Source: Agapetus fuscipes (Eukaryota > Arthropoda > Insecta > Trichoptera > Glossosomatidae). Taken from it: a DNA stretch of 64,000 nt. The position numbers and the translations under genes were made by a program. The notes beneath the pieces are model-generated. The model was not told the DNA's origin and did not search any database. It saw nothing but the letters and a program-made list of their open reading frames with translations. The stretch spans positions 1,922,001 through 1,986,000 of the forward strand of contig OX637338.1 in assembly GCA_951799405.1 (NCBI GenBank), given 5' to 3'. Each line of letters starts with the position of its first letter. Positions within the stretch are counted from its first letter, which is position 1. Shown piece after piece: positions 10,724-64,000 of this stretch.

Positions 10724-12245
10724 ATAATAATAATAATAACAGGCTGATTTATTTTAAATTACACATGATAAGAGAGCGCCGTTTTTGTGTGTGTCACACC
10801 TCAAGGGCCCTCTCCGATCATGGATAAGACTTTCTAAACAAGTGTGCCTTGAGTGCTCCTCGAAATACACCCACAGATTTGGAGTTCTTCACTCCGGGTG
10901 GCAGTCTGTTCCACTCCACCGGCCCCGCAACACGGAAAGCGCGGTCTCCGAAGTTTGTACGAATCTGACGGCGCGGCTGAACCAAATTGACTACTCCATC
11001 ACCCGCAGATCTGAGTGTCTGCCTCCTAACACCCATTTCAACAGGTGAAATCATATCAGCCAGATAAGGTGGGGCCAAGCCATTGATGGCTTTATATACC
11101 ATTAAACAAACACGGAAGACCACCCTCTCCGGGAAACGAAGCCAATGAAGTTTTTTTAACAGCGGGGTGATGTGAGCGAATTTGGGAATCCCGAATATGA
11201 GTCTTGCTGCCGAATTCAACACAGATTGAAAGCGATTAAACTGTTTCTTCGGCTGACCACTATAAAGCGTCGAGCAATAGTCAATCCGAGACATCACAAA
11301 CGCACTCACCAAGGTCTTAACCGCATCTGACGGTAGACATTTTCTTATTGCCTTTATTTGGCGAAGCGAAAAAAAAGAAGAAGCTATTGTGGCATCTATT
11401 TGCCTATCCAGTGTCAGGTTACGATCCAGTAAGACTCCTAGAAGTCTTACCGAATCAGAAGGCTGGATAAGCTTACCTCCTATGGAGAGTGGTACTCTAT
11501 TCACCAGAAGGTGGTCACGCCTCGATGTGGCTGCCCAGAGTATCTCCGTCTTATCCATGTTTAAGATTAGGCCATTGTTCCTCATCCACCCACCGACCTC
11601 CGCGATACACCCAGAGACCCTGCAACTGAGGTCCTCAGCCATGTCTGGCCGAGAATGAGAGTATATTTGCCAGTCATCTGCATATGAGTGTGCGATGAGG
11701 CCCCATTTTTCAACAATACTCTCAATCTCAGCAGTATACAATATGAAAAGGATCGGACCCAGCACAGAGCCCTGTGGGACCCCGGAAGACAGCGAGTAGG
11801 TAGGTGAAACACTATCACAAATACGCACCGCCTGTCTGCGCTCCACCAGATAGGAAGAAAACCACGCCAAAGCCCCTCCGGTCAAACCAAATGACACCTC
11901 CAATCTCTCAATAAGAATTGGGTGACTTACTGTGTCAAAGGCCGCACTCATATCAAGAAGCGCCAGTAAGGCTAGATTACCACACTCCACAGCTGATATC
12001 ATATCCAATACAAGCATGAGCATACCGGTTTCTGTTGAGTGATATTTCCGGTATGCAGCAAAAACCTGTGCTAACGGTTTAACAAAAGCATCAAATCCCT
12101 GTTGTGAGCTGCAGTATCTCAGTCTTCTGGTGATGGAATAGTCCACAAATTGGGAGAAAGATCTCTCCGTTCTACTATATAAGAGGTCAAATTTGTAGGA
12201 CAAGAGGCAGTTGCAAATATGCACTTGGCTTGATAACGCATACAC
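10724..12245 (-). mobile_element. CR1/L2-like LINE, 5'-truncated copy
   Basis: The element runs right to left and ends in a TTA/TTG microsatellite tail at 10724-10740. Its 3' UTR contains CCCTTGAGGTGTGACACACA and AAAACGGCGCTCTC, which is also the tail of SINE-B. It lacks the endonuclease and the start of RT. Other copies of the family are at 33456-34062 and 40169-40612. Confidence 0.85.
10818..12245 (-). CDS. LINE reverse transcriptase (CR1/L2-like), N-terminally truncated
   Basis: The 475-codon open frame encodes the RT of a non-LTR retrotransposon, which copies element RNA at a nicked chromosomal target. Visible motifs: A-F-D at residues 102-104, G-V-P-Q-G-S at 155-160 and the catalytic Y-A-D-D at 188-191. 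A C-terminal domain follows, with R-I-D-Y-C-S-T-L, A-A-R-L-I-F and H-W-L-R-F. The endonuclease and RT fingers are missing, and about the first 50 residues look degraded, so the copy is not autonomous. The first codon is not a true start. A family member must supply activity in trans for SINE-B, which shares its 3' end. Confidence 0.85.
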   Translation of the reverse strand: MYALSSQVHICNCLLSYKFDLLYSRTERSFSQFVDYSITRRLRYCSSQQGFDAFVKPLAQVFAAYRKYHSTETGMLMLVLDMISAVECGNLALLALLDMSAAFDTVSHPILIERLEVSFGLTGGALAWFSSYLVERRQAVRICDSVSPTYSLSSGVPQGSVLGPILFILYTAEIESIVEKWGLIAHSYADDWQIYSHSRPDMAEDLSCRVSGCIAEVGGWMRNNGLILNMDKTEILWAATSRRDHLLVNRVPLSIGGKLIQPSDSVRLLGVLLDRNLTLDRQIDATIASSFFSLRQIKAIRKCLPSDAVKTLVSAFVMSRIDYCSTLYSGQPKKQFNRFQSVLNSAARLIFGIPKFAHITPLLKKLHWLRFPERVVFRVCLMVYKAINGLAPPYLADMISPVEMGVRRQTLRSAGDGVVNLVQPRRQIRTNFGDRAFRVAGPVEWNRLPPGVKNSKSVGVFRGALKAHLFRKSYP

Positions 12246-14894: not shown

Positions 14895-14898
14895 ATAT

Positions 14899-15372
14899 TG
14901 TTATGTAAATATAAATATTGAAATAAGTATGGGTAGTTATAGTTATAAGAATCCTCAAAAGTATTGGTAGGTAAGATCGATAATTATGTATAAGTGTAGA
15001 ATTCTCTAGGCTAAGTAGGTATTTGTTATAATTATAGGAATACTGTATTGCATTGGTAGGTAGGATTTTGGTTGTGTCTAGGTAGTACGTGAAACATCGA
15101 GAAGTAATAATTACTCTGGAACCGTCTAGCAACTTTGGTTCTAGATCATACTGCTCTACAGAGTATAAAGGTGCGAATGGCCTGCAGAGCGGGCCAGTAT
15201 CATAGAGACTTACAAACACATCGAAGTCATCTGATCAGTGAACCAAAACCAAGTGGAATAATCGAGAAAGTAGTGTGAAAATAAATTTTGTAACTGTGTA
15301 AAATAAATAACTATTGAAGAAGACCTGTGTATTTTTTTAATTTGAAGACAATTGAACCCTAATTTCGTACCA
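14899..15372 (+). repeat. 5' LTR of the Gypsy derivative
   Basis: Starts TGTTATG and ends TACCA (TAACA in the 3' LTR). A TATAAA box is at 15164-15169, with GCCAGTATCATAGAGAC about 30-50 bp downstream as the probable start region. AATAAA motifs near 15280-15305 could signal polyadenylation. Minus-strand ORFs over the LTR are fortuitous, since they recur identically in each LTR. Confidence 0.95.
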
Positions 15373-15584: not shown

Positions 15585-17210
15585 TACTGGATCAACTGCA
15601 GCGAAGACGTCAAAGATTGGTGTCGAAAATGTGTAACCTGTGCAACGGCCAATGGACCGCAAAGGAAAAGGCGAGCACCAATGCGTCAGTACAATGTTGG
15701 CAGCCCCTTTGAAAGAATTGCCATCGACATAGCTGGCCCATTTCCTACAACTGAGAAGGGTAACAAGTACATCATGGTGGTGATGGATTACTTCAGCAAG
15801 TGGGTGGAAGCTTACTCAATCCCTAACCAAGAGGCCGTAACCGTGACTGAAGTTCTAGTTACCGAATTTATCAGCAGGTTTGGCGTACCCCTGGAATTAC
15901 ATTCTGATCAGGGAAGGAACTTTGAAGCTGCTATCTTCCAGCAAATGTGTGAGCGGCTAGGGATCTACAAGACCAGGACCACTGCGCTACATCCACAGTC
16001 TGATGGAATGGTGGAAAGGATGAACCGTACCGTGGGGAGGTACTTAGCCAAAGTAGTGTCCAGCCATCAGCGGGACTGGGACCGACATCTGCCTTTGTTC
16101 TTATTGGCTTACCGGTCGGCTGTTCAGGAAACGACGAAGAAGACTCCCAGCAGCATACTGTTTGGGCGAGAAATGCGACTTCCTTGTGATCTCAAATTTG
16201 GCTGCAAACCAGGTGAAGACCTAGCCGGAGAAGACTATGTGACAGACCTTCGCAGGAGGCTGGATGACATCCATGATCAGGTCCGCATGAACATCGGGGA
16301 AGCCAGCGATCAAATGAAGGAGCGCTATGACACCAGAGCTGACAGCATGGGGTACAAAGCTGGTGACTGGGTGTGGCTTTTTGACCCCAAGAGGCGCCAA
16401 GGATACTGTCCGAAACTTCAGCGTTCCTGGGACGGGCCGTACGAGATCTTGGAGCGCATCAACGATGTGGTCTACCGCATAAAAAAGAGACCAAACGGAA
16501 AACCAAGGGTCGTGCACTACAATCGCCTCTCACCATACCTAGGCGATAATGATGACCAACCAGCCCAAAAAGTACGACAGTGCGTCGCATCCGAAAGATC
16601 ACCAGCCTTTGAGACGTTTTGGGAGAACGCGAAGGCAGGGCAGAAGTTTCGCCATGGAGTGACCACAGAAGTCCACAAGGACTTATTTGAGGTCACTAGG
16701 GACCACACACTGGCATGCAGTGTACCGGAAGATCTAGATATGTCTAGAGGAATTGCACGGGTCTTCCGATACAAATTCGGAGAACCGCAACCCTCGAGCA
16801 GCCCGCAAGGAAGAGCTCTGAGACTACCGAAGGGGCGTCAACAAGCATACTGCCTGGTTGTCCCGGATTCCAGCAACCTGGAAGAGGACTACAAGGCATT
16901 GTGGGACGGCCTTGTTGAGCTGCGTGACTACATGTTGGAAGATCAGCAGGCGCGTCTGGCAATACCGAAGATGGGTGGCGGCCGCGCTAATCGAGACTGG
17001 CGGATAATCCGGAGTATGATTGAAGCAGTGTTCTCGGGAGTCGGCATCAGCGTCAAGGTGTGCTGCGAGCAAGCGCAGCCGAGAGCCAGTGGGGAGAAAT
17101 CCGTGGACTGCCACTTCTTCCTGACCACAGGGTGTCGACGTGGATCAGCATGCCCCTACCTACACAGAGTCAAGACTGTTCCGGGACGAAACAGTCTAGG
17201 TGGGGGGTAG
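15585..17210 (+). CDS. pol: Gypsy Pol remnant: integrase core, GPY/F module, macrodomain-like segment, CCCH zinc finger
   Basis: The frame is open from 15585, with the first Met at 15681 (residue 1 here). The catalytic triad D16, D76, E112 has DD35E spacing. W-D-G-P-Y (250-254) to H-Y-N-R-L-S-P-Y (279-286) is the GPY/F module. Residues 333-461 then read like an OARD1/TARG1-type macrodomain: D-L-F (334-336), R-G-I-A-R-V-F (356-362), K-F-G (365-367), Y-C-L-V-V (390-394) and I-P-K-M-G-G-G (428-434). Residues 477-495 form C-x7-C-x5-C-x3-H. The stop abuts the 3' LTR. The integrase zinc-binding half (HHCC) is largely lost by the internal deletion, so activity is unlikely. The tail is outside standard Gypsy Pol and could mediate ADP-ribose or RNA binding, which is inference. 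Confidence 0.93.
   Translation, partial: YWINCSEDVKDWCRKCVTCATANGPQRKRRAPMRQYNVGSPFERIAIDIAGPFPTTEKGNKYIMVVMDYFSKWVEAYSIPNQEAVTVTEVLVTEFISRFGVPLELHSDQGRNFEAAIFQQMCERLGIYKTRTTALHPQSDGMVERMNRTVGRYLAKVVSSHQRDWDRHLPLFLLAYRSAVQETTKKTPSSILFGREMRLPCDLKFGCKPGEDLAGEDYVTDLRRRLDDIHDQVRMNIGEASDQMKERYDTRADSMGYKAGDWVWLFDPKRRQGYCPKLQRSWDGPYEILERINDVVYRIKKRPNGKPRVVHYNRLSPYLGDNDDQPAQKVRQCVASERSPAFETFWENAKAGQKFRHGVTTEVHKDLFEVTRDHTLACSVPEDLDMSRGIARVFRYKFGEPQPSSSPQGRALRLPKGRQQAYCLVVPDSSNLEEDYKALWDGLVELRDYMLEDQQARLAIPKMGGGRANRDWRIIRSMIEAVFSGVGISVKVCCEQAQPRASGEKSVDCHFFLTTGCRRGSACPYLHRVKTVPGRNSLGGG
17196..17210 (+). other. Polypurine tract
   Basis: CTAGGTGGGGGGTAG, immediately before the 3' LTR, is the expected plus-strand primer site. 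It overlaps the end of pol, whose stop codon TAG is its last three bases. Confidence 0.8.
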
Positions 17211-17684
17211 TGTTATGTAAATATAAATATTGAAATAAGTATGGGTAGTTATAGTTATAAGAATCCTCAAAAGTATTGGTAGGTAAGATCGATAATTATG
17301 TATAAGTGTAGAATTCTCTAGGCTAAGTAGGTATTTGTTATAATTATAGGAATACTGTATTGCATTGGTAGGTAGGATTTTGGTTGTGTCTAGGTAGTAC
17401 GTGAAACATCGAGAAGTAATAATTACTCTGGAACCGTCTAGCAACTTTGGTTCTAGATCATACTGCTCTACAGAGTATAAAGGTGCGAATGGCCTGCAGA
17501 GCGGGCCAGTATCATAGAGACTTACAAACACATCGAAGTCATCTGATCAGTGAACCAAAACCAAGTGGAATAATCGAGAAAGTAGTGTGAAAATAAATTT
17601 TGTAACTGTGTAAAATAAATAACTATTGAAGAAGACCTGTGTATTTTTTTAATTTGAAGACAATTGAACCCTAATTTCGTAACA
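17211..17684 (+). repeat. 3' LTR of the Gypsy derivative
   Basis: 474 bp, TGTTATG to GTAACA, near-identical to the 5' LTR, and followed by the ATAT target duplication. Confidence 0.95.
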
Positions 17685-17842
17685 ATATTTTGTTTGGTTT
17701 AAATGAAAAATATTTTTTCAGGACAAATAATTGAGATTTTTTTTTTGTTTGTTTGCTACCTTGGAAAGCTTATATTTTCGAGGAAAAAAGTCGTTTAATA
17801 AAATATATCTATTGTAATTAGCTAAATTATTTTTTGTAATTA

Positions 17843-19348: not shown

Positions 19349-20842
19349 CTACCTTGATAAAACAGCAATCACACCGTCGAGAAATTTACTTTTTGATAAT
19401 AAAAATATGTCTAAATCGTTAAAATTATCATTGTAAGTGCTGAGCAATCTGTTCATTATTGAATTTTTAGCATAATTTGAATGATATGTATTAGAAAAGA
19501 ATAGAGAACCAAGTCTAGTGCGTCTAGAGTGTGGTACACGATAAGTGATCCCCCCACATAGAGAATTAGAATCAATATAGCCATGAATGAGCCCATATAA
19601 AAAACTCATGTCTAGGAGAATCCGACGGGATTTCATTGGCATCATTCCATGATGATGAGCGGCAGCACGATGATCATTAAAGTAAACATGTGCCCTGAAG
19701 TTTAGATGCTTAAGAAATTTGTTCTGGATACCTTCTAGTCGACGTATATATGTATCATACATGGGGTTCCAAACAGGAGATGCAAATTCAAGAATACTGC
19801 GAACATAGGCAAAATACGGTGATTTAACTGCATTCAAATCCTTAAAATCACTGCAAGCTCTCAAGACAAATCCTAGCACTTTGTAAGCCCTCTCAGTGAT
19901 GGAAAAGATATGTGAATCGAAAATTAGTCCAGCGTCCATATAAACTCCAAGGTCCCTCACTCCGGTTACGGTCTTCAAATAATTATTATTAATCTGATAG
20001 TTGTAAGTTAAGGGAATTTTTTTTCGAGTGAAAGTTATTTGTTGACACTTATTTACATTCAGAGATAAATCATTAAGGATACAGTAATGCGAGAGCCTAT
20101 CAAGGTCGCTTTGCAGCATTAGGCAGTCCTGATAATTATCTATCCTCATATACACTTTTGTATCATCAGCGTACAACAAGCATTTCGCGTGTTGAAAACA
20201 ACACTCAATATCATATACATATGCATTAAATAAAAGAGGACCTAAGTGGGAACCCTGGGGGACCCCAGAGGGAATTGTTAAATAATTGGACCTACAGCCA
20301 CCGACGACTACCGCTTGAGAACGCCTGTTTAAATATGAGGAGAACCACCGCAAAAGATTGCCGTGTACTCCGAGTGTATGCAATTTTTGTAATAACACAC
20401 GATGATTGACTCTGTCAAACGCCTTAGAGTAGTCCGTGTACACGACATCAATCTGTCCACCTCTGTCCATTTCCTTGAAGACGCAGTCAGTGAAAACTGC
20501 CAGATTAGAAACAACCGATCTCTTCCTTAAGAAACCATGTTGAGATTCAGGTACTTGAGAAGATATCAAAGCATATATGTGATTGTAAATTATCTTCTCA
20601 AAGAGTTTCCCAAAAACTGGTAGGATTGATATTGGTCTATAGTTTTCAGCTTTGTTTTTAGATCCAGTCTTATGTATAGGGACAACGTGTTCCTTCTTCC
20701 ACACATGAGGAAACTCACCTGTAAGGAGAGAACTATTGAATATGATTGTCAATGGGACTGAAAGTTCCTTGGCACAGTTAACAGCCAAAAATGAGGGGAT
20801 TCCGTCATGACCCGGACCTTTATTGGAGTCAAGCGAGTTCAA
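19349..20842 (-). CDS. LINE ORF2, reverse transcriptase half
   Basis: Open for 497 codons. It begins within RT (K-G-P-G-H-D-G-I-P at 8-16), with K-A-F-D (140-143), G-V-P-Q-G-S (193-198) and catalytic Y-A-D-D (224-227). A thumb and C-terminal region follow, including R-D-L-G-V, V-R-S-I-L-E-F-A-S-P-V-W and L-E-G-I-Q-N-K-F. It completes the endonuclease half upstream, from which it is separated by about 30 bp and a frame change, so a single indel near 20860-20880 inactivates ORF2. The first codon shown is not a true start. Confidence 0.9.
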   Translation of the reverse strand: MNSLDSNKGPGHDGIPSFLAVNCAKELSVPLTIIFNSSLLTGEFPHVWKKEHVVPIHKTGSKNKAENYRPISILPVFGKLFEKIIYNHIYALISSQVPESQHGFLRKRSVVSNLAVFTDCVFKEMDRGGQIDVVYTDYSKAFDRVNHRVLLQKLHTLGVHGNLLRWFSSYLNRRSQAVVVGGCRSNYLTIPSGVPQGSHLGPLLFNAYVYDIECCFQHAKCLLYADDTKVYMRIDNYQDCLMLQSDLDRLSHYCILNDLSLNVNKCQQITFTRKKIPLTYNYQINNNYLKTVTGVRDLGVYMDAGLIFDSHIFSITERAYKVLGFVLRACSDFKDLNAVKSPYFAYVRSILEFASPVWNPMYDTYIRRLEGIQNKFLKHLNFRAHVYFNDHRAAAHHHGMMPMKSRRILLDMSFLYGLIHGYIDSNSLCGGITYRVPHSRRTRLGSLFFSNTYHSNYAKNSIMNRLLSTYNDNFNDLDIFLLSKSKFLDGVIAVLSR

Positions 20843-20871
20843 GTATTTGCATACAATTGCCGGTGTAACAG

Positions 20872-22203
20872 TCAGACCCTAGTCATCGCTTTGGAAGAAT
20901 ACACACCATTAAGAGTTTCGTCCCAAGCATCCAAGTGACCATTCACAAACACCGATCCAAAGTAGTCAGAGAGCAACCCTGCCATATCAGCAGCATTAGA
21001 GGCCACACGATCCCCAAAGGACAACTCCCGAGGCAAAGAAGAAGAATTTTTCTTTCCCTTCAGAAAGGACCAGAACTTTTTAGGATCCTTGGCTACAGAA
21101 TCCTCTGTACGCCTTATAAACCTCGTGTAGCATTCACGTTGAACTCGTTTCTGACGAGCACGCAATAGGGAGAAAGTTTGATAATCCAACGGATCACCTA
21201 GCAGCCGCCAACGTTTGTGGAACTTGTGCTTTTCTCTAATAATTTTAATAAGTGCAGCAGAAAACCATGATGGGTAAGTGCCCGATCGAATAGTTTTGCT
21301 TGGGATGTAAGTGGCGATACCGCCATTGATTATCCTGTAGAACTCATCCACTGAATGATTCACATTGCTGTGATCAAGCACCTTCTCCCAATCAATGTCA
21401 AGTAAGAATGTTTTGAGGCCAGCGTAGTCGCCTTTCCTAAAGAAACGTACCAAGCGTGGAGGCTCAACTATAGATCCTTGGGGGATAAATTTAATATTTA
21501 GTTCAATAGATGGATGGTGTGAGTCTTCAACCACCATCGGAAAATCAGCGCGAGAAGCTTCTATAGTGACATTAGAAAAAATCAAGTCTAGAACCCTATC
21601 ATTGGCATTAACAACGCCATTGTATTGGTCCAACCCAATTACAGAGTAATTTAAAAATAAGTCCATCGTATGACGATCAGCTATGAGTGGGCTGAGATGG
21701 TCATTAATATCATCCTTTACCCATGTTATATTCGGTAAGTTAAAGTCACCGATAACTAGGAAAGTATCATCTGGGAACAGGTTTCTCAAACTAGAAAGTA
21801 CAGAAGCAAAAGACAGCACCATATGTTCGTGACAAGAGCCACCAGCCATATATATGCAAGCGATATGTAAATCAGCAGTGTTCCTGTTTAGAGACTTACC
21901 CGATACAGTAATCCAGACACACTCCAAATCCGACTGCCAATCCACTCTATGTCGGGCATTCAAGGACTGGCGAGCAGCAATCATGACACCACCACCGCGT
22001 AAAATACCAGCACTACCTTCATTTCTATCTCTTCTAAAAATATCGTACCGATCATCACACAATTCTTTATTCAAAATGCCATCGTTCAACCAACTTTCTG
22101 AGATTAAAATTACATCATAATCATTTAATAAAACATTTTGTAGGAACGTGTGTGTTTTTGTACGAAGACCTCGTACGTTTTGATAAAACAGTCTTAATGT
22201 CAT
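20872..22203 (-). CDS. LINE ORF2, endonuclease half (APE type)
   Basis: A 443-codon frame starting M-T-L-R-L-F-Y-Q-N-V-R-G. This is an exonuclease-endonuclease-phosphatase fold that nicks the target DNA: I-S-E-S-W-L (about 34-39), V-I-G-D-F-N-L-P (about 150-157) and D-S-H-H-P-S (about 229-234) are the usual catalytic landmarks. The last ~100 residues are the linker to RT. It ends at a premature stop that lies in RT coding sequence when the other frame is followed, a frameshift and not a natural terminus. Confidence 0.9.
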   Translation of the reverse strand: MTLRLFYQNVRGLRTKTHTFLQNVLLNDYDVILISESWLNDGILNKELCDDRYDIFRRDRNEGSAGILRGGGVMIAARQSLNARHRVDWQSDLECVWITVSGKSLNRNTADLHIACIYMAGGSCHEHMVLSFASVLSSLRNLFPDDTFLVIGDFNLPNITWVKDDINDHLSPLIADRHTMDLFLNYSVIGLDQYNGVVNANDRVLDLIFSNVTIEASRADFPMVVEDSHHPSIELNIKFIPQGSIVEPPRLVRFFRKGDYAGLKTFLLDIDWEKVLDHSNVNHSVDEFYRIINGGIATYIPSKTIRSGTYPSWFSAALIKIIREKHKFHKRWRLLGDPLDYQTFSLLRARQKRVQRECYTRFIRRTEDSVAKDPKKFWSFLKGKKNSSSLPRELSFGDRVASNAADMAGLLSDYFGSVFVNGHLDAWDETLNGVYSSKAMTRV

Positions 22204-22501: not shown

Positions 22502-23416
22502 TCAATTTATACGCAGCAAGTCTTGCTCTGATTCGATTCGGATGGCTGGCATAACATCGTTTTTTCTCATATAAATACAACAGTTTCGCGTCCATACGTA
22601 TGAAAATTTTTTGAGTTTTGCAGCTTCTTTGGCCCTTTTTAGCAGAAATTTTGTTGCTGCTGTTAAGTGTTCATTGACATAAATCGCCCTTGATTCCCCC
22701 TGCATACCCAGATCAGTCGTCGTTAATCCTCTCTTCTTTCGGATTGCTGCAATCAGCTTATTCTTCGTTAAATTGCTTTTAAATTTTGCGACAATGGCTC
22801 TAGGTCTGGAACTCTTGACGACGTGTGAGGCACGAGAGACGTAGATCACATCGTCCCTCTCCAGTTGCACCCCCAGCCCCTCTGCTACCTTGGTGAGAGC
22901 ATCCATAGGGCCTGCGGAGCCCTTCTCAGGGATCCCTACGATTTCTAAATTATTTTGCTTGTCCCTTTGTTCGGCGAGGGACAGCTTAGAGGACAACGTG
23001 GAAGTTAATTTATCCAAGCACTCCACCTGCCCCTTGTATTTGACCAGCTTGTCCTCACAAGTGCATTTGAATCTTTCAGCCTCAAGTACCTCACACCTCG
23101 TCTCCAGTGCAGCACATCTACCCTGAAGTTCCTCGAGTGCCTTTAAAACCCTGTCATAATCCATCTTGGGATCCGATTTAAGACCCATTGAAGTCTGAGT
23201 CGAAGCCACAGGAGATGGGCTAGGGCCCGGCTTCAACGATCTTGGGTCCTCCACTTTGCAGCTTCTACACATCCACTGTGAACGGGTCCTAGTGGTCTGT
23301 TTTTTTAAAAACTCAGTAGGTAATTGCTGACATGACACGTGGAAACTGAGACAACATCTGGAGCATTTTAAAGTTTTTTTTGGACTAATTTCATCGCTAC
23401 AAATATGGCACTTCAT
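22502..23416 (-). CDS. LINE ORF1 protein: PHD finger, coiled coil, L1ORF1p-like RNA-binding region
   Basis: 304 codons from a true ATG. The N terminus M-K-C-H-I-C has paired cysteines (C3/C6, C18/C21), H26/C29 and W-M-C-R-S-C near 49-54, a C4HC3 PHD-type zinc finger. Residues about 80-145 are charged and heptad-like (coiled coil, probably trimerising). The C-terminal half (N-N-L-E-I-V-G-I-P-E, A-I-V-A-K-F, I-Y-V-N-E-H-L-T) resembles the RRM plus C-terminal domain of L1 ORF1 proteins, which bind element RNA. The stop is just upstream of the spacer. Intact. Confidence 0.88.
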   Translation of the reverse strand: MKCHICSDEISPKKTLKCSRCCLSFHVSCQQLPTEFLKKQTTRTRSQWMCRSCKVEDPRSLKPGPSPSPVASTQTSMGLKSDPKMDYDRVLKALEELQGRCAALETRCEVLEAERFKCTCEDKLVKYKGQVECLDKLTSTLSSKLSLAEQRDKQNNLEIVGIPEKGSAGPMDALTKVAEGLGVQLERDDVIYVSRASHVVKSSRPRAIVAKFKSNLTKNKLIAAIRKKRGLTTTDLGMQGESRAIYVNEHLTAATKFLLKRAKEAAKLKKFSYVWTRNCCIYMRKNDVMPAIRIESEQDLLRIN

Positions 23417-31531: not shown

Positions 31532-31945
31532 TATTATGTAAATATTAAAATATGTATAGGTATTAGTTATAGCTATGTAATAGGAATCCTCAAAAGTATG
31601 TGTGGGTAGGAATAATTGGATAAAGTACTTGAAGCGCCTAGAAATAATGATTACTACGTACCTGCTTGAATCTTTTCTTAGTTCTGGAACTGTCTAGCGA
31701 GTGTAGTGTCTAGATGGTGCTGTTGTGGAGAGTATATAGGACGCTAGTTGCTTGCACTAGGTGTCAGTCATCTGTGATCCTTCACCCATACAACGAACGA
31801 ATTCGACCAGTGAACTCAAACCAAGTGTAATGGAATAATCGAGACTGTCTTTGTTAAAATAAATTTAAAAAGTGTAAAATAAATAACTGTAAAAGAAGAC
31901 CAGTGTTGTTAATTGAAAGACTTTCGAACCCCAAAAATCGTAACA
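31532..31945 (+). mobile_element. Diverged solo LTR of the Gypsy family, ATAC target duplication
   Basis: 414 bp, TATTATG to GTAACA. It shares blocks with the 474-bp LTRs (AGGAATCCTCAAAAGTATG, GGAATAATCGAGA, AAATAAATAACTG, AAGAAGACC). ATAC is duplicated at 31528-31531 and 31946-31949. No internal sequence remains, so LTR-LTR recombination has occurred. It is older or from another subfamily. Confidence 0.85.
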
Positions 31946-58590: not shown

Positions 58591-58634
58591 TGTTATGTAA
58601 ATATAAATATTGAAATAAGTATGGGTAGTTATAG
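58591..58634 (+). repeat. 44-bp LTR-start fragment next to the 5' LTR
   Basis: TGTTATGTAAATATAAATATT to GGGTAGTTATAG is the first 44 bp of an LTR, after which the LTR begins again at 58635. ATAG at 58631-58634 would be the 4-bp target duplication if the element inserted into an older LTR. Confidence 0.85.
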
Positions 58635-59105
58635 TGTTATGTAAATATAAATATTGAAATAAGTATGGATAGTAATAGTTATAAGAATCCTCAAAAGTAT
58701 TGGTAGGTAAGATCGATAATTATGTATAAGTGTAGAATTCTCTAGGCTAAGTAGGTATTTGTTATAATTATAGGAATACTGTATTACATTTGTAAGTAGG
58801 ATTTTGGTTGTGTCTAGGTAGTACGTGAATCATCGAGAAGTAATAATTGCTCTGGAACCGTCTAGCGACTTTAGGTCTAGATCATACTACTCTAAAGAGT
58901 ATAAAGGGTGGGAATGGCCTGCAGAGCGCCAGTATCATAGAGACTTACAAACACATCGAAGTCATCTGATCAGTGAACCAAAACCAAGTGGAATAATCGA
59001 GAAAGTAGTGTGAAAATAAATTTTGTAACTGTGTAAAATAAATAACTATTGAAGAAGACCTGTGTATTTTTAATTTGAAGACAATTGAACCCTAATTTCG
59101 TAACA
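58635..59105 (+). repeat. 5' LTR of the intact Gypsy copy
   Basis: 471 bp, TGTTATG to GTAACA. It differs from the 474-bp LTRs at scattered bases (for example GTATGGATAGTAATAG). Contains TATAAAGG near 58899-58906. Confidence 0.95.
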
Positions 59106-59107
59106 AT

Positions 59108-59122
59108 TGGCGTCAGGTGCGG
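59108..59122 (+). other. Primer-binding site
   Basis: TGGCGTCAGGTGCGG, identical to the site at 15375, two bases after the LTR. Confidence 0.75.
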
Positions 59123-59766
59123 AATTGTCAAGAAAAATTAAGATCTTCTGTCTAAAAATAAATAAAATAAATTAAATAGTGTAAAAATGAACTTTATTCA
59201 AATTGAACTTTGTGTGAACTGACTTTTGTGAAAACAAGTGTTTAAATAAATTTTTGTTAAAAGAAAAGACGCAAAAGCAAGTTGCTTATAAATTCTGGAA
59301 CATCATATGGAACATAATCCTGGACATAACATAATGACTATTTTACCGCATTGAGAAAGTCATCAAATTGGACCATAGTTTTTTTATTATTGTGTGTGAT
59401 TAAAAAAATAAAATAAATAAATAAAAATCTTGAAAAATATTACAAAAGAACGTTCCAGATTCATCGAGAAAAAGTTTTTGAATAACTATCCTTTGTTTAC
59501 AAGTGTGTACATTAAGTACCTACCTGTGTGTTTGAAAGACTTGAGACGAAATAAATAATTATGTACTATCAGACATTATTATGTAAAAAAATATTGGTGA
59601 ATTAAAAATAAATATTAAAAGACAGTACCTACCAATCAGTGTAATCAGATAAATTATTATTTTTGCTAAAGTACGTATTCAAAACAGCTATATATATAAA
59701 ACTCAAAACTTGTATTAAATAAATTTGAAAATATTTTTGTTTTGACGTAAATTTTGAAAAAAAAAA
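59123..59766 (+). other. Gypsy untranslated leader
   Basis: A/T-rich leader between PBS and gag, without coding capacity. The deletion derivative keeps its first ~200 bp, to about 59310. Packaging signals would be expected here, but I cannot point to one. Confidence 0.7.
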
Positions 59767-61056
59767 ATGGCAACGAAAGTGAACGTCAAGGACCTCAAAG
59801 TCACTGAGCTTAAAAATGAGCTTCTGGAGAGGGACCTGGAGACCTCAGGAGGAAAGGCAGCCTTACAAGCACGCCTCATAGAGGCCTTGGAACAGTCAGG
59901 CGAAGACCCGGCATATTTTGTCATGGCGTCTGGAGGGGACCGCGCCTTGGACGAGCTAAATATCAGCATCAACAGTAACCTGACAGGACTGAAGACTGAG
60001 ATGGCTGACAACGCCAAGACCCTAGAGGAGAAAATGGCCAGCAACTTGACGGACCTGAAGGCTGAGATCGCTGAAAACACCAAGACCCTGGAGGAAAAGA
60101 TGACCGGGCTGGAGGAGAAGATGGCCGACAGCGCCAGGACCCTGAAGGGAGAAATAGAGGTGAAGCTGACTGGTTTTGAGGAAACAGTTGCGGAAATGAA
60201 AACCCGCATTTCCACCCTGGAGGACCGTCTGCGTGCCGAGCTGGCTGACAAGTGCCAGATGGAGTCCACCAGGATATCCCCCAAAGGCCTTCACGACGAG
60301 ATCGACCAGGGATGCTCAACTCCAACCAGGGTCACAAGAGGGGATGATGACCCTTCCCTAGCAAAGCACAACCTCCCAACCTTCGACGGGAAGACGTCGT
60401 GGGAGGAATACTTGACCCTCTTTGAGACGGCTGCCATGATGGGAGCCTGGAGCCAGCAGAAGAAGGCTTCGGTTCTCAGCCTGTCGCTCCGAGGAGACGC
60501 TCTCAGGGTTCTGCAGGCCATACCCCTGGACAACCGTGGTGACTTTGGGCAGCTGAAGCAGCGCTTGGATATGCGCTATGGCCACAAGTGCCTGGAGCAG
60601 CTGTACAAGTCGCAGCTGAACACAAGGGTGCAGAAGCCCAACGAGAGCCTCCAGGAGTTTGAAATGGACATCGCCCGCCTGGTACGAGACGCTTACCCGA
60701 CAGCCTCCGACGACATCTGTGAGAGCTTGGCAGTGGACAAGTTCCTAAATGGATTGCGGGAATGGGAGACGCAACAAGCCGTAAAACTGGCCCATCCCAA
60801 GGCTTTGAACGAGGCGCTCAGCCAAGCTCTCGAGTTTGAGGCTGTCAAACAGTCCATCAGGGGCCACGCCAGGGTTCGTGCAGTCGAGGCAGAGGAGGTC
60901 AAGCTACCTACAACCGAGGAGCTAATTGAAAAAGTGCTGGAACGTCTGAGACCTCGAAGACGAGACCCACGCTGCTGGAACTGCGGACAGCTGGGCCACC
61001 TTAGCACCAAGTGTCCCAAGCCTCAGAAACCCAGAAAACAGGCTGCGGAAAACTAG
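59767..61056 (+). CDS. gag: Gypsy Gag with N-terminal SAP-like domain and CCHC zinc knuckle
   Basis: 429 codons from an ATG after an A-run. Residues about 8-42 (L-K-V-T-E-L-K-N-E-L ... G-G-K-A-A-L-Q-A-R-L) match the helix-turn-helix pattern of SAP domains, which bind DNA or chromatin. Residues about 60-165 are coiled coil with repeated K-T-L-E-E-K-M segments. A capsid region about 205-345 includes F-D-G-K-T-S-W-E-E-Y and L-R-G-D-A-L-R-V-L. Residues 403-416 are C-x2-C-x4-H-x4-C, the nucleocapsid knuckle that binds element RNA. A basic tail ends the protein. Pol overlaps it in the -1 frame. Intact. Confidence 0.93.
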   Translation: MATKVNVKDLKVTELKNELLERDLETSGGKAALQARLIEALEQSGEDPAYFVMASGGDRALDELNISINSNLTGLKTEMADNAKTLEEKMASNLTDLKAEIAENTKTLEEKMTGLEEKMADSARTLKGEIEVKLTGFEETVAEMKTRISTLEDRLRAELADKCQMESTRISPKGLHDEIDQGCSTPTRVTRGDDDPSLAKHNLPTFDGKTSWEEYLTLFETAAMMGAWSQQKKASVLSLSLRGDALRVLQAIPLDNRGDFGQLKQRLDMRYGHKCLEQLYKSQLNTRVQKPNESLQEFEMDIARLVRDAYPTASDDICESLAVDKFLNGLREWETQQAVKLAHPKALNEALSQALEFEAVKQSIRGHARVRAVEAEEVKLPTTEELIEKVLERLRPRRRDPRCWNCGQLGHLSTKCPKPQKPRKQAAEN

Positions 61057-64000
61057 AAAGGGTTAATGGGAAGGGGCAACCGTTGACCCACGCTGGAGAG
61101 GCCCTGAAATCTGCTGCTACTGTCGCAACCGTGAGAGGAAAAGCCAGCAGCATTTTTATCAATGGCATAATAGATGGAGTAACTCGTGAACTACTGGTGG
61201 ACACGGGAGCAACCAGGACAATTCTGAGACGCGACATAGTGGCACGAGGTAAGCAGATTGCACCAACAAAGTGGTCTCTACACACCGCCACGGGAGAGTC
61301 AGCACAGGTGTATGGGGAGACGATTGCCACCTTCCAAATTGGCAGCACCACTTTTGATCATCGGACGTTGGTGGCCAACATTGAAGAAGACGTTATATTG
61401 GGAATGGACATACTGGACAGATTTGGGTGCAGTTTAAATTTAAAGAAAGGGTCCATTAAAATTGGAAATGAAGAAGTCATCCTGCAAAGACGGAAAGAAC
61501 TGGCTGCACGTGTTATCCTAGCCAAGAATACCGAAGTGAAGGGGCGATCCGAGATGATAGTGAGTGCCCGCCTGGATTCCAGTAGTACACATGACCAAAT
61601 CTGTATGATAGAACCGGAGAACATGGACAATGTTAACAAAGGAGTCATGGTGGCAAGAACAGTGATTCGCGCAAAGGAGACCATTCCTGTCAAGATCATG
61701 AATGTGAACAGCTACCCAGTTAAAATGAATGAAGGTTTTGTTTTGGGCAGATGTGAGAGGATAACTTCCATTGTGCAACAGATGACAAACATGTCATGCG
61801 AAGGAAACAAATTGTCAACACAATTGGAAGCCCTGGTCCACGACGCTTCCCAAGGTCTAACCGAGGAAAACAAACGGAGAGTGAGGAGTTTGATCTGCCG
61901 CTACCAGAACATTTTCGAGGACTCTAATGGCCGTCTGGGAAGAACCAAGGTAGTGCGACATAGCATAGACACCGGAGAAGCGAGACCAATAAAACAGGCT
62001 CCAAGAAGACTACCCTTTGCAAAGCGGGAAGAAGCTGACAAGATCATCAAAGACATGAGCAAGGATGGCATCATAGAACCATCAAGTAGCCCTTGGACAT
62101 CCCCGGTGGTACTGGTGAAAAAGAAGGATGGTACCACGAGATTTTGTGTGGACTACAGACTGCTCAACGATGTTACGAAAAAGGATAGTTACCCTCTGCC
62201 AAGGATTGACGACACCTTGGACACATTGGCAGGATGCACCATTTTTTCCACATTGGACCTGAAAAGTGGCTACTGGCAAGTTGAATTGGATGCCAAAGAT
62301 AAGGAGAAAACTGCATTCTCGACTGGATCTGGACTTTGGCAGTTCACCGTGATGCCATTTGGCTTATGCAATGCCCCCGCCACGTTTGAAAGGCTGATGG
62401 AGAATGTGCTGCGAGGACTATCATGGGAAACCTGCCTGGTATACTTGGATGACATAATCATCCTGGGAAAGGACTTCAACCATCAGTTGAGAAATCTGGA
62501 GCAAGTTTTCGGGCGACTACAAGACGCTGGACTGAAGCTCAACCCGAAAAAGTGTAACCTGTTCAAGAAACAAGTAAATTACCTGGGACACATAGTTTCT
62601 CAACGTGGAGTTGAAGTTGACCCTGCCAAAATCAAGGCAGTAAGAGACTGGCCCGTGCTGAAGGACAAACATGAAACTAGGAGTTTCCTGGGGCTGTGCA
62701 CTTATTACAGGAGGTTTGTGCCAAGATTTGCGGACATTGCAAAACCGCTCACCAAGCTTACGGAAGAAAACACTCGCTTCCATTGGAGTGATTCCTGCGC
62801 ACAAGCATTTGAAGAGCTTAAGGGAAGATTAACAAGTGCCCCCATCTTGAGCTACCCACGAAAAGATGGAAAGTTCATCCTGGATACCGACGCTAGTAAT
62901 GTGGGGATAGGAGGCGTCCTTTCCCAAATACAGGATGGGCATGAGACTGTTCTGGGTTACTTCAGTAAAGTGCTTTCCAAGCCAGAACGAAATTATTGCG
63001 TGACCAGACGAGAGCTTCTTGCCGTGATAAAATCAGTGGAACACTTCCGCAAATACTTGTACGGGAGAAAATTCACACTACGGACTGATCATGCTGCACT
63101 GGTTTGGCTTCTGAAATTCAAAAACCCAGAAGGGCAAGTGGCTAGATGGATTGAAAGGCTCCAGGAGTATGATTATGACTCCGAACATAGACCTGGCACG
63201 CTTCATCGAAATGCGGATGCATTATCCAGACGACCATGCGCCAGTGACTGCAAACATTACAGCAAGATGGAGGACAAGGTAGCAATTGTCCAAAGGACGA
63301 CCACTGAAGATGAGGACTGGCAAGATGAAAAATTGGCGCAAGACCAACTGAATGATCCGGACTTGAAGTATGTGATGGAATGGGCGCGAGAAGGAGAAAG
63401 GCCAACCTGGGAAAAACTCGCCCCCTTATCACCAACTGTCAAGGCTTATTGGGCTCAATGGGGATCCATAGTGATAGAAGGAGGGTTTCTGAAACGAAAG
63501 ATCGAGAAGGAAGACGGCACACTTAGAAGAAAGCAAACCCTCGTTCCGAGGAGCCGAGTACCGGAAATCCTTGGACTGCTGCATGGAGGAACTTCTGGAG
63601 GACATTTAGGCGTTAAGAAGACGCTGGAGAAAGTGAAAGAGCGATTTTACTGGATCAACTGCAGCGAAGACGTCAAAGATTGGTGTCGAAAATGTGTAAC
63701 CTGTGCAACGGCCAATGGACCGCAAAGGAAAAGGCGAGCACCAATGCGTCAGTACAATGTTGGCAGCCCCTTTGAAAGAATTGCCATCGACATAGCTGGC
63801 CCATTTCCTACAACTGAGAAGGGTAACAAGTACATCATGGTGGTGATGGATTACTTCAGCAAGTGGGTGGAGGCTTACTCAATCCCTAACCAAGAGGCCG
63901 TAACCGTGACTGAAGTTCTAGTTACCGAATTTATCAGCAGGTTTGGCGTACCCCTGGAATTACATTCTGATCAGGGAAGGAACTTTGAAGCTGCTATCTT
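61005..64000 (+). CDS. pol: Gypsy Pol: protease, RT, RNase H, integrase (3' end outside the window)
   Basis: The frame opens at 61005, overlaps the last 52 nt of gag, and lies in -1 relative to it, so a ribosomal frameshift probably makes Gag-Pol. Domains: aspartic protease with V-D-T-G-A (Asp codon 61200) and V-I-L-G-M-D-I-L; RT about 62040-62560 with Y-L-D-D (62442-62453); RNase H about 62860-63210 with D-T-D-A-S and T-D-H-A-A; integrase HHCC region about 63585-63715; catalytic core with its first Asp at 63789. I read no stop codon up to 64000. By comparison with 15.6-17.2 kb the unseen remainder should hold the rest of integrase, GPY/F, the macrodomain-like segment and the CCCH finger. Confidence 0.93.

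Follow-up and report, generated by a model that had tools for sequence, protein, structure and literature searches.

RNA viruses are known to use macrodomains, which in some of them oppose host ADP-ribosylation. Macro-domain open reading frames (ORFs) have also been described in fish epsilon-like endogenous retroviruses, according to the accessible part of PMC4977317, which cites Basta et al. 2009. Among host enzymes, human TARG1 (OARD1, C6orf130) belongs to the ALC1-like class of macrodomains. Its catalysis relies on Lys84 and an acidic residue at position 125, given as Asp125 in the available text of PMC9411070 and as Glu125 in that of PMC7050489; the human TARG1 sequence in PDB has Asp at this position. 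Here we describe a Ty3/gypsy long terminal repeat (LTR) retrotransposon whose Pol carries a TARG1/OARD1-type macrodomain at its C-terminus, directly behind integrase. The element lies in a stretch of 64,000 nucleotides (the window) from the trichopteran insect Agapetus fuscipes (GCA_951799405.1, contig OX637338.1, positions 1,922,001 to 1,986,000 of the forward strand), and all coordinates below are positions within this window.

The macrodomain is encoded in a plus-strand open frame of 509 codons (15681-17210), which continues unbroken from integrase into the tail. A separate macrodomain ORF was thus rejected. The frame encodes an integrase core (Pfam rve, residues 9-100, 15705-15980, E 7.9e-16) and an integrase C-terminal domain (Integrase_p58_C, residues 252-285, 16434-16535, E 1e-12), followed by a fast-evolving linker (residues 291-326, 16551-16658; mean identity 0.24 among 17 relatives), the macrodomain and a CCCH zinc finger. 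The first-pass annotation, made from the letters of the sequence, had placed a macrodomain at residues 333-461 (16677-17063). This position was correct, although the domain extends a little further in the alignment (about residues 327-462, 16659-17066), and the motifs it had listed are present in the translation. It had noted neither the replaced catalytic residues nor the CCCH finger, and its functional suggestion was that the domain could counter PARP-based defence or target chromatin.

Sequence comparison and structure prediction support the identification of the tail as a TARG1-type macrodomain, as that annotation had proposed. In a phmmer search of the 194-aa tail against PDB sequences, query residues 14-145 matched five distinct sequences of human C6orf130/TARG1 (E 6e-11 to 7.9e-11), and TARG1 was the only macrodomain among the 20 sequences listed. 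The window macrodomain and TARG1 are identical in 39 of 135 alignment columns (28%). A profile built from eight relatives matched TARG1 at E 8.6e-45, compared with 1.3e-07 for DarG. The predicted structure of the tail has the alpha/beta/alpha macro fold and is closest to TARG1. The fold was judged on the 194-aa model, in which the last 11 residues and residues 152-155, located between the macrodomain and the zinc finger, fall below a predicted local distance difference test (pLDDT) score of 50, because the 509-aa model is weak in integrase (mean pLDDT 58.3). Of the 50 best rows in a BFVD structure search, many are unnamed, and those with a name include no retroelement.

Pfam returned no match on the window macrodomain segment at E up to 1, which is the one point in favor of a chance resemblance or an assembly chimera. 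Among five relatives tested, the PF01661 (Macro) cut-off was reached by P0008 and P0015; P0012 scored below the curated cut-off, and P0020 and P0023 gave no match. Chance was rejected by a shuffle control, in which the real segment scored 44.8 bits with human TARG1 as the query and the best of 2000 shuffles 7.6 bits. Together with the predicted fold, a 98% identical sequence on a contig in ENA and 18 relatives on contigs of their own, this refutes both explanations, and we consider their probability vanishingly small. The ENA sequence, a 232-aa protein, was found with the tail as the query (one of 76 candidates scored). The 509-aa frame, searched with matches restricted to the tail, gave none at E 0.01 among 507 candidates, probably because these were limited to about 280-890 aa.

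Other elements share the tail, and they were found among relatives of Pol. A second copy of the element (copy 2) encodes most of a Pol at the right end of the window, and searching with it passed 7884 of 7967 scored proteins, the best 120 of which were examined. Besides the window protein and P0002, which is 98% identical to it, the human TARG1 query matched 18 of these 120 at 29-46% identity. In the 18 carriers, the frame extends 110-282 residues past the integrase C-terminal motif. Of 69 other relatives with this motif, 62 stop within 6-25 residues and the remaining seven continue for 73-141 residues that have no TARG1 match. The TARG1 query also covered 33 relatives that lack the motif. Two carriers come with a named source, P0015 with an Erysiphe pulchra assembly, a fungal record that could be a contaminant, and P0023 with Callosobruchus maculatus.

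The catalytic dyad is retained in most relatives. Among the 17 with a complete macrodomain, the equivalent of Lys84 is Lys in 16 and that of Asp125 is Asp in 15. The Asp20 equivalent is Asp in 18 of 18. P0010, whose macrodomain is cut short, was left out of the dyad counts, the region identities and the distance correlation given below. With the dyad kept in most relatives and replaced in P0002 as well as in the window copy, the family appears to be enzymatic, and the window lineage appears to have changed.

The carriers are also related through the rest of Pol. In a quick tree without bootstrap of 68 rows (67 of the best 120 relatives plus copy 2), they fall into one 23-row group with a Shimodaira-Hasegawa approximate likelihood ratio test (SH-aLRT) support of 100. 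The group comprises 19 rows with a macrodomain, three without and one truncated; the copy 2 macrodomain lies beyond the window, and its label was assumed from the first copy (copy 1). The truncated P0011 and P0078 were excluded from the label count, and the label requires four changes on the tree. In a macrodomain tree, the retroelement domains group in a single clade (95/91), separate from human TARG1, the only animal TARG1 included, and from five macrodomains of viral contigs used only for comparison, one of which (L004) is a very long row (1.98). Furthermore, across 17 relatives, macrodomain distances correlate with those of integrase (r 0.69) and of protease-reverse transcriptase (RT)-RNase H (r 0.55), each with p 0.0001. 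These patterns, judged against one animal TARG1, suggest that a Ty3/gypsy lineage may have captured the domain in a single event, but they would also fit repeated capture from close donors.

We propose that a Ty3/gypsy lineage captured a TARG1/OARD1-type macrodomain once, at the Pol C-terminus, and would have inherited it with Pol since. For most members, we infer enzyme activity, packaging, target and benefit as follows. The domain is probably a working ADP-ribosylhydrolase, either built into the integrase end of Pol or cut from it. Packaged in the particle, it would travel with the cDNA-integrase (pre-integration) complex and, as an eraser, strip the ADP-ribose added by host poly(ADP-ribose) polymerases (PARPs) from Asp/Glu residues in capsid, integrase or chromatin proteins or from nucleic-acid ends. 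Removal would be timed before or during integration. In the window lineage, where the dyad is replaced, the domain most likely would only bind ADP-ribose, for tethering or shielding, or would use other residues. We would put this combined account, a once-captured domain that is probably a working eraser in most members and a binder in the window lineage, at about an even chance. The broader statement that a whole Ty3/gypsy clade has a working TARG1-type ADP-ribosylhydrolase at the integrase end of Pol, with window-like lineages turned from eraser to reader, stands in our estimate slightly short of that.

Several observations weigh against this proposal. In the window copy, the Lys84 equivalent is Pro395 and the Asp125 equivalent is Ala436, and P0002 has the same Pro and Ala. 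Active-site decay confined to this copy after its internal deletion was rejected, since P0002 carries identical replacements. Because both dyad residues are gone, the enzymatic half of the interpretation is weakened for the window copy, and hydrolase activity has likely been lost there; it is only likely because SCO6735, a bacterial member of the class, is active without either dyad residue (available text of PMC9411070). Sites are also altered in P0017 (Arg for Lys84, Asn for Asp125) and P0018 (Asn for Asp125). The macrodomain branch of the window sequence is about three times as long as that of its sister P0003 (1.12 versus 0.35), while the Pol branches are closer in length (0.31 versus 0.23, 1.3 times), which argues that constraint on the domain is relaxed or changed in the window lineage. 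Finally, P0004, P0021 and P0022 lie inside the carrier group without a macrodomain. On these sequences, the domain appears dispensable at least sometimes. The terminus of P0022 resembles the tails of its relatives (by eye), which suggests that P0022 lost the domain.

The Pols without a macrodomain and the altered active site of the window lineage would fit a passenger, that is, a captured gene fragment without present function that is retained only for its place in the pol frame before the polypurine tract. In most members, however, the dyad is kept at about 50% identity, and the adjoining linker is far less alike. We consider a passenger highly improbable.

The changed active site also suggests a reader or tether that is not an enzyme and binds ADP-ribosylated chromatin or repair sites, steering integrase there much as chromoviral integrases are guided by their chromodomain. 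The domain sits directly behind the integrase C-terminal domain, and the window lineage, without the dyad, yet keeps the predicted fold, the equivalents of Asp20 (Asp334), Gly43 and Trp129 and an open frame. The ALC1-like class itself holds readers and erasers (accessible part of PMC7050489). The retention of Lys84 and Asp125 across the complete relatives is not expected of a pure reader. As an account of the family, this is somewhat unlikely; for the window lineage, it is the explanation we favor.

The zinc finger (C-x8-C-x5-C-x3-H, residues 477-495, 17109-17165) hints at contact with nucleic acid. Its Pfam zf-CCCH match (E 0.0012, 19.1 bits) is slightly below the 20.5 cut-off, and the pattern occurs in the window copy, P0002 and 10 of 17 relatives. 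An eraser acting on nucleic acid could free the RNA or cDNA ends of the element, or its DNA bases, of ADP-ribose and so protect the replication intermediate. TARG1, DarG and SCO6735 undo thymidine-linked ADP-ribosylation of DNA (available text of PMC9411070), and TARG1 also acts on nucleic-acid termini (accessible part of PMC7050489). The NCBIfam DarG model matches the window segment at E 2.5e-05, but its 23.7 bits fall short of the cut-off of 250. By the example of SCO6735, activity could have persisted in the window version. The finger is absent from seven of the 17 relatives, which speaks against such a role, and we judge it distinctly unlikely. Six of these seven group together with the truncated P0011 in the Pol tree, so the finger was probably lost once in that group; the seventh is P0013.

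If our proposal holds, the Pol of an LTR retrotransposon would for the first time be known to contain an ADP-ribose eraser, and PARPs would, through ADP-ribosylation, restrict retrotransposon cDNA or integration in the hosts concerned. That most divergent members keep the dyad would mark ADP-ribosylation as a force to which retroelements are exposed. The eraser-like, altered and macrodomain-less versions would form a natural series.

Copy 1, which contains the 509-codon frame, has the structure of an LTR retrotransposon. Its 474-bp plus-strand LTRs (5' LTR, 14899-15372, TGTTATG...CGTACCA; 3' LTR, 17211-17684, TGTTATG...CGTAACA) are flanked by the target-site duplication ATAT (14895-14898 and 17685-17688). 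The LTR regions are identical at 477 of 479 positions by blastn, and one of the two mismatches falls outside the LTR. At a plus-strand junction with a 7-bp overlap (15585-15591), the sequence to the left corresponds to copy 2 at 59104-59324 (97.7%) and that to the right to 63648-64000 (99.7%, one mismatch). About 4.3 kb is therefore absent between the 5' LTR and integrase. The near-identical LTRs, the ATAT flanks and this gap make copy 1 look like a derivative that inserted recently and carries an internal deletion. The first 85 residues of its frame are identical to the Pol of copy 2. A purine-rich stretch ending in the stop codon TAG (17192-17210, plus strand) overlaps the end of pol directly before the 3' LTR and is the likely polypurine tract. 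The pol stop abuts the LTR at 17211, and copy 1 has no errantivirus-type env ORF between the two.

Copy 2, also on the plus strand, leaves the window at its right end. Its 5' LTR (58591-59105) is 96.2% identical to that of copy 1 by blastn, and its tip is duplicated as a 45-bp direct repeat (58591-58635), so that the LTR seems to begin twice. The gag gene (59767-61056, 429 aa) encodes Retrotrans_gag and a CCHC zinc knuckle, both above cut-off. It starts with a SAP domain (59767-59900, E 3.6e-08), a DNA-binding module that is not known to be usual in gag. The pol frame (61011-63998, 996 aa) follows the Ty3/gypsy order protease-RT-RNase H-integrase; the window ends inside integrase, which continues in copy 1. 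Diverged remnants of the same LTR at 31536-31906 (about 80% identity over 64 and 78 bp) are perhaps an old solo LTR.

The window contains other mobile elements. A minus-strand non-LTR retrotransposon (19349-22203) encodes a 497-aa RT frame and a 443-aa endonuclease-like frame, the matches of which are below Pfam cut-off, and is accompanied by a protein with a PHD finger and Baculo_FP_2nd (22502-23416). A second RT frame of the long interspersed nuclear element (LINE) type (475 aa) lies at 10818-12245 on the minus strand. The 64-kb window has no tRNA genes.

Pattern searches were extended to other contigs. The window macrodomain query found none in viral contigs (three pattern matches), whereas the eight-relative alignment found five distant TARG1-like macrodomains at 34-36% identity among 34 pattern matches. 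The IMG/VR viral contigs L001-L005 (from 6001) encode TARG1-like macrodomains, and by eye their translations contain apparent counterparts of Lys84 (Lys in V/ITK) and Asp125 (Asp in GCGLD). In genome contigs, none of 53 pattern matches to the macrodomain was confirmed.

The window macrodomain shares its predicted fold with human TARG1 over the full domain, and most of the relatives share the TARG1 dyad, but TARG1 is a free-standing host enzyme without a retroelement fusion, and the window copy lacks the dyad. DarG and SCO6735 are bacterial ALC1-like hydrolases of the same macrodomain class, and SCO6735 is likewise dyad-less; by the accessible accounts, both act on modified DNA, and they do so outside any retroelement. 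The macrodomains of alphavirus nsP3, which the available text of PMC7050489 ties to stress granules, of rubella p150 and, by predicted structure in the BFVD search, of Kadipiro virus VP8 are also virus-borne. The fish epsilon-like elements are likewise retroelements that acquired a macro domain. As far as the accessible description goes, they are Retroviridae with additional ORFs, whereas the domain described here lies inside a Ty3/gypsy Pol after integrase. We found no report of a macrodomain in Ty3/gypsy Pol among the papers listed from the open-licence literature searched, and a search there on PARP and copia gave none either. Within that literature, captured macrodomains are known from viruses, and the kind of element, the position and the macrodomain class appear new. 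Chromoviral Ty3/gypsy elements carry a chromodomain behind integrase, a chromatin-mark module at the same place in Pol that differs in fold and in mark (histone methylation versus ADP-ribose). Besides this chromodomain, the macrodomain would be a second type of mark-directed module behind gypsy integrase.
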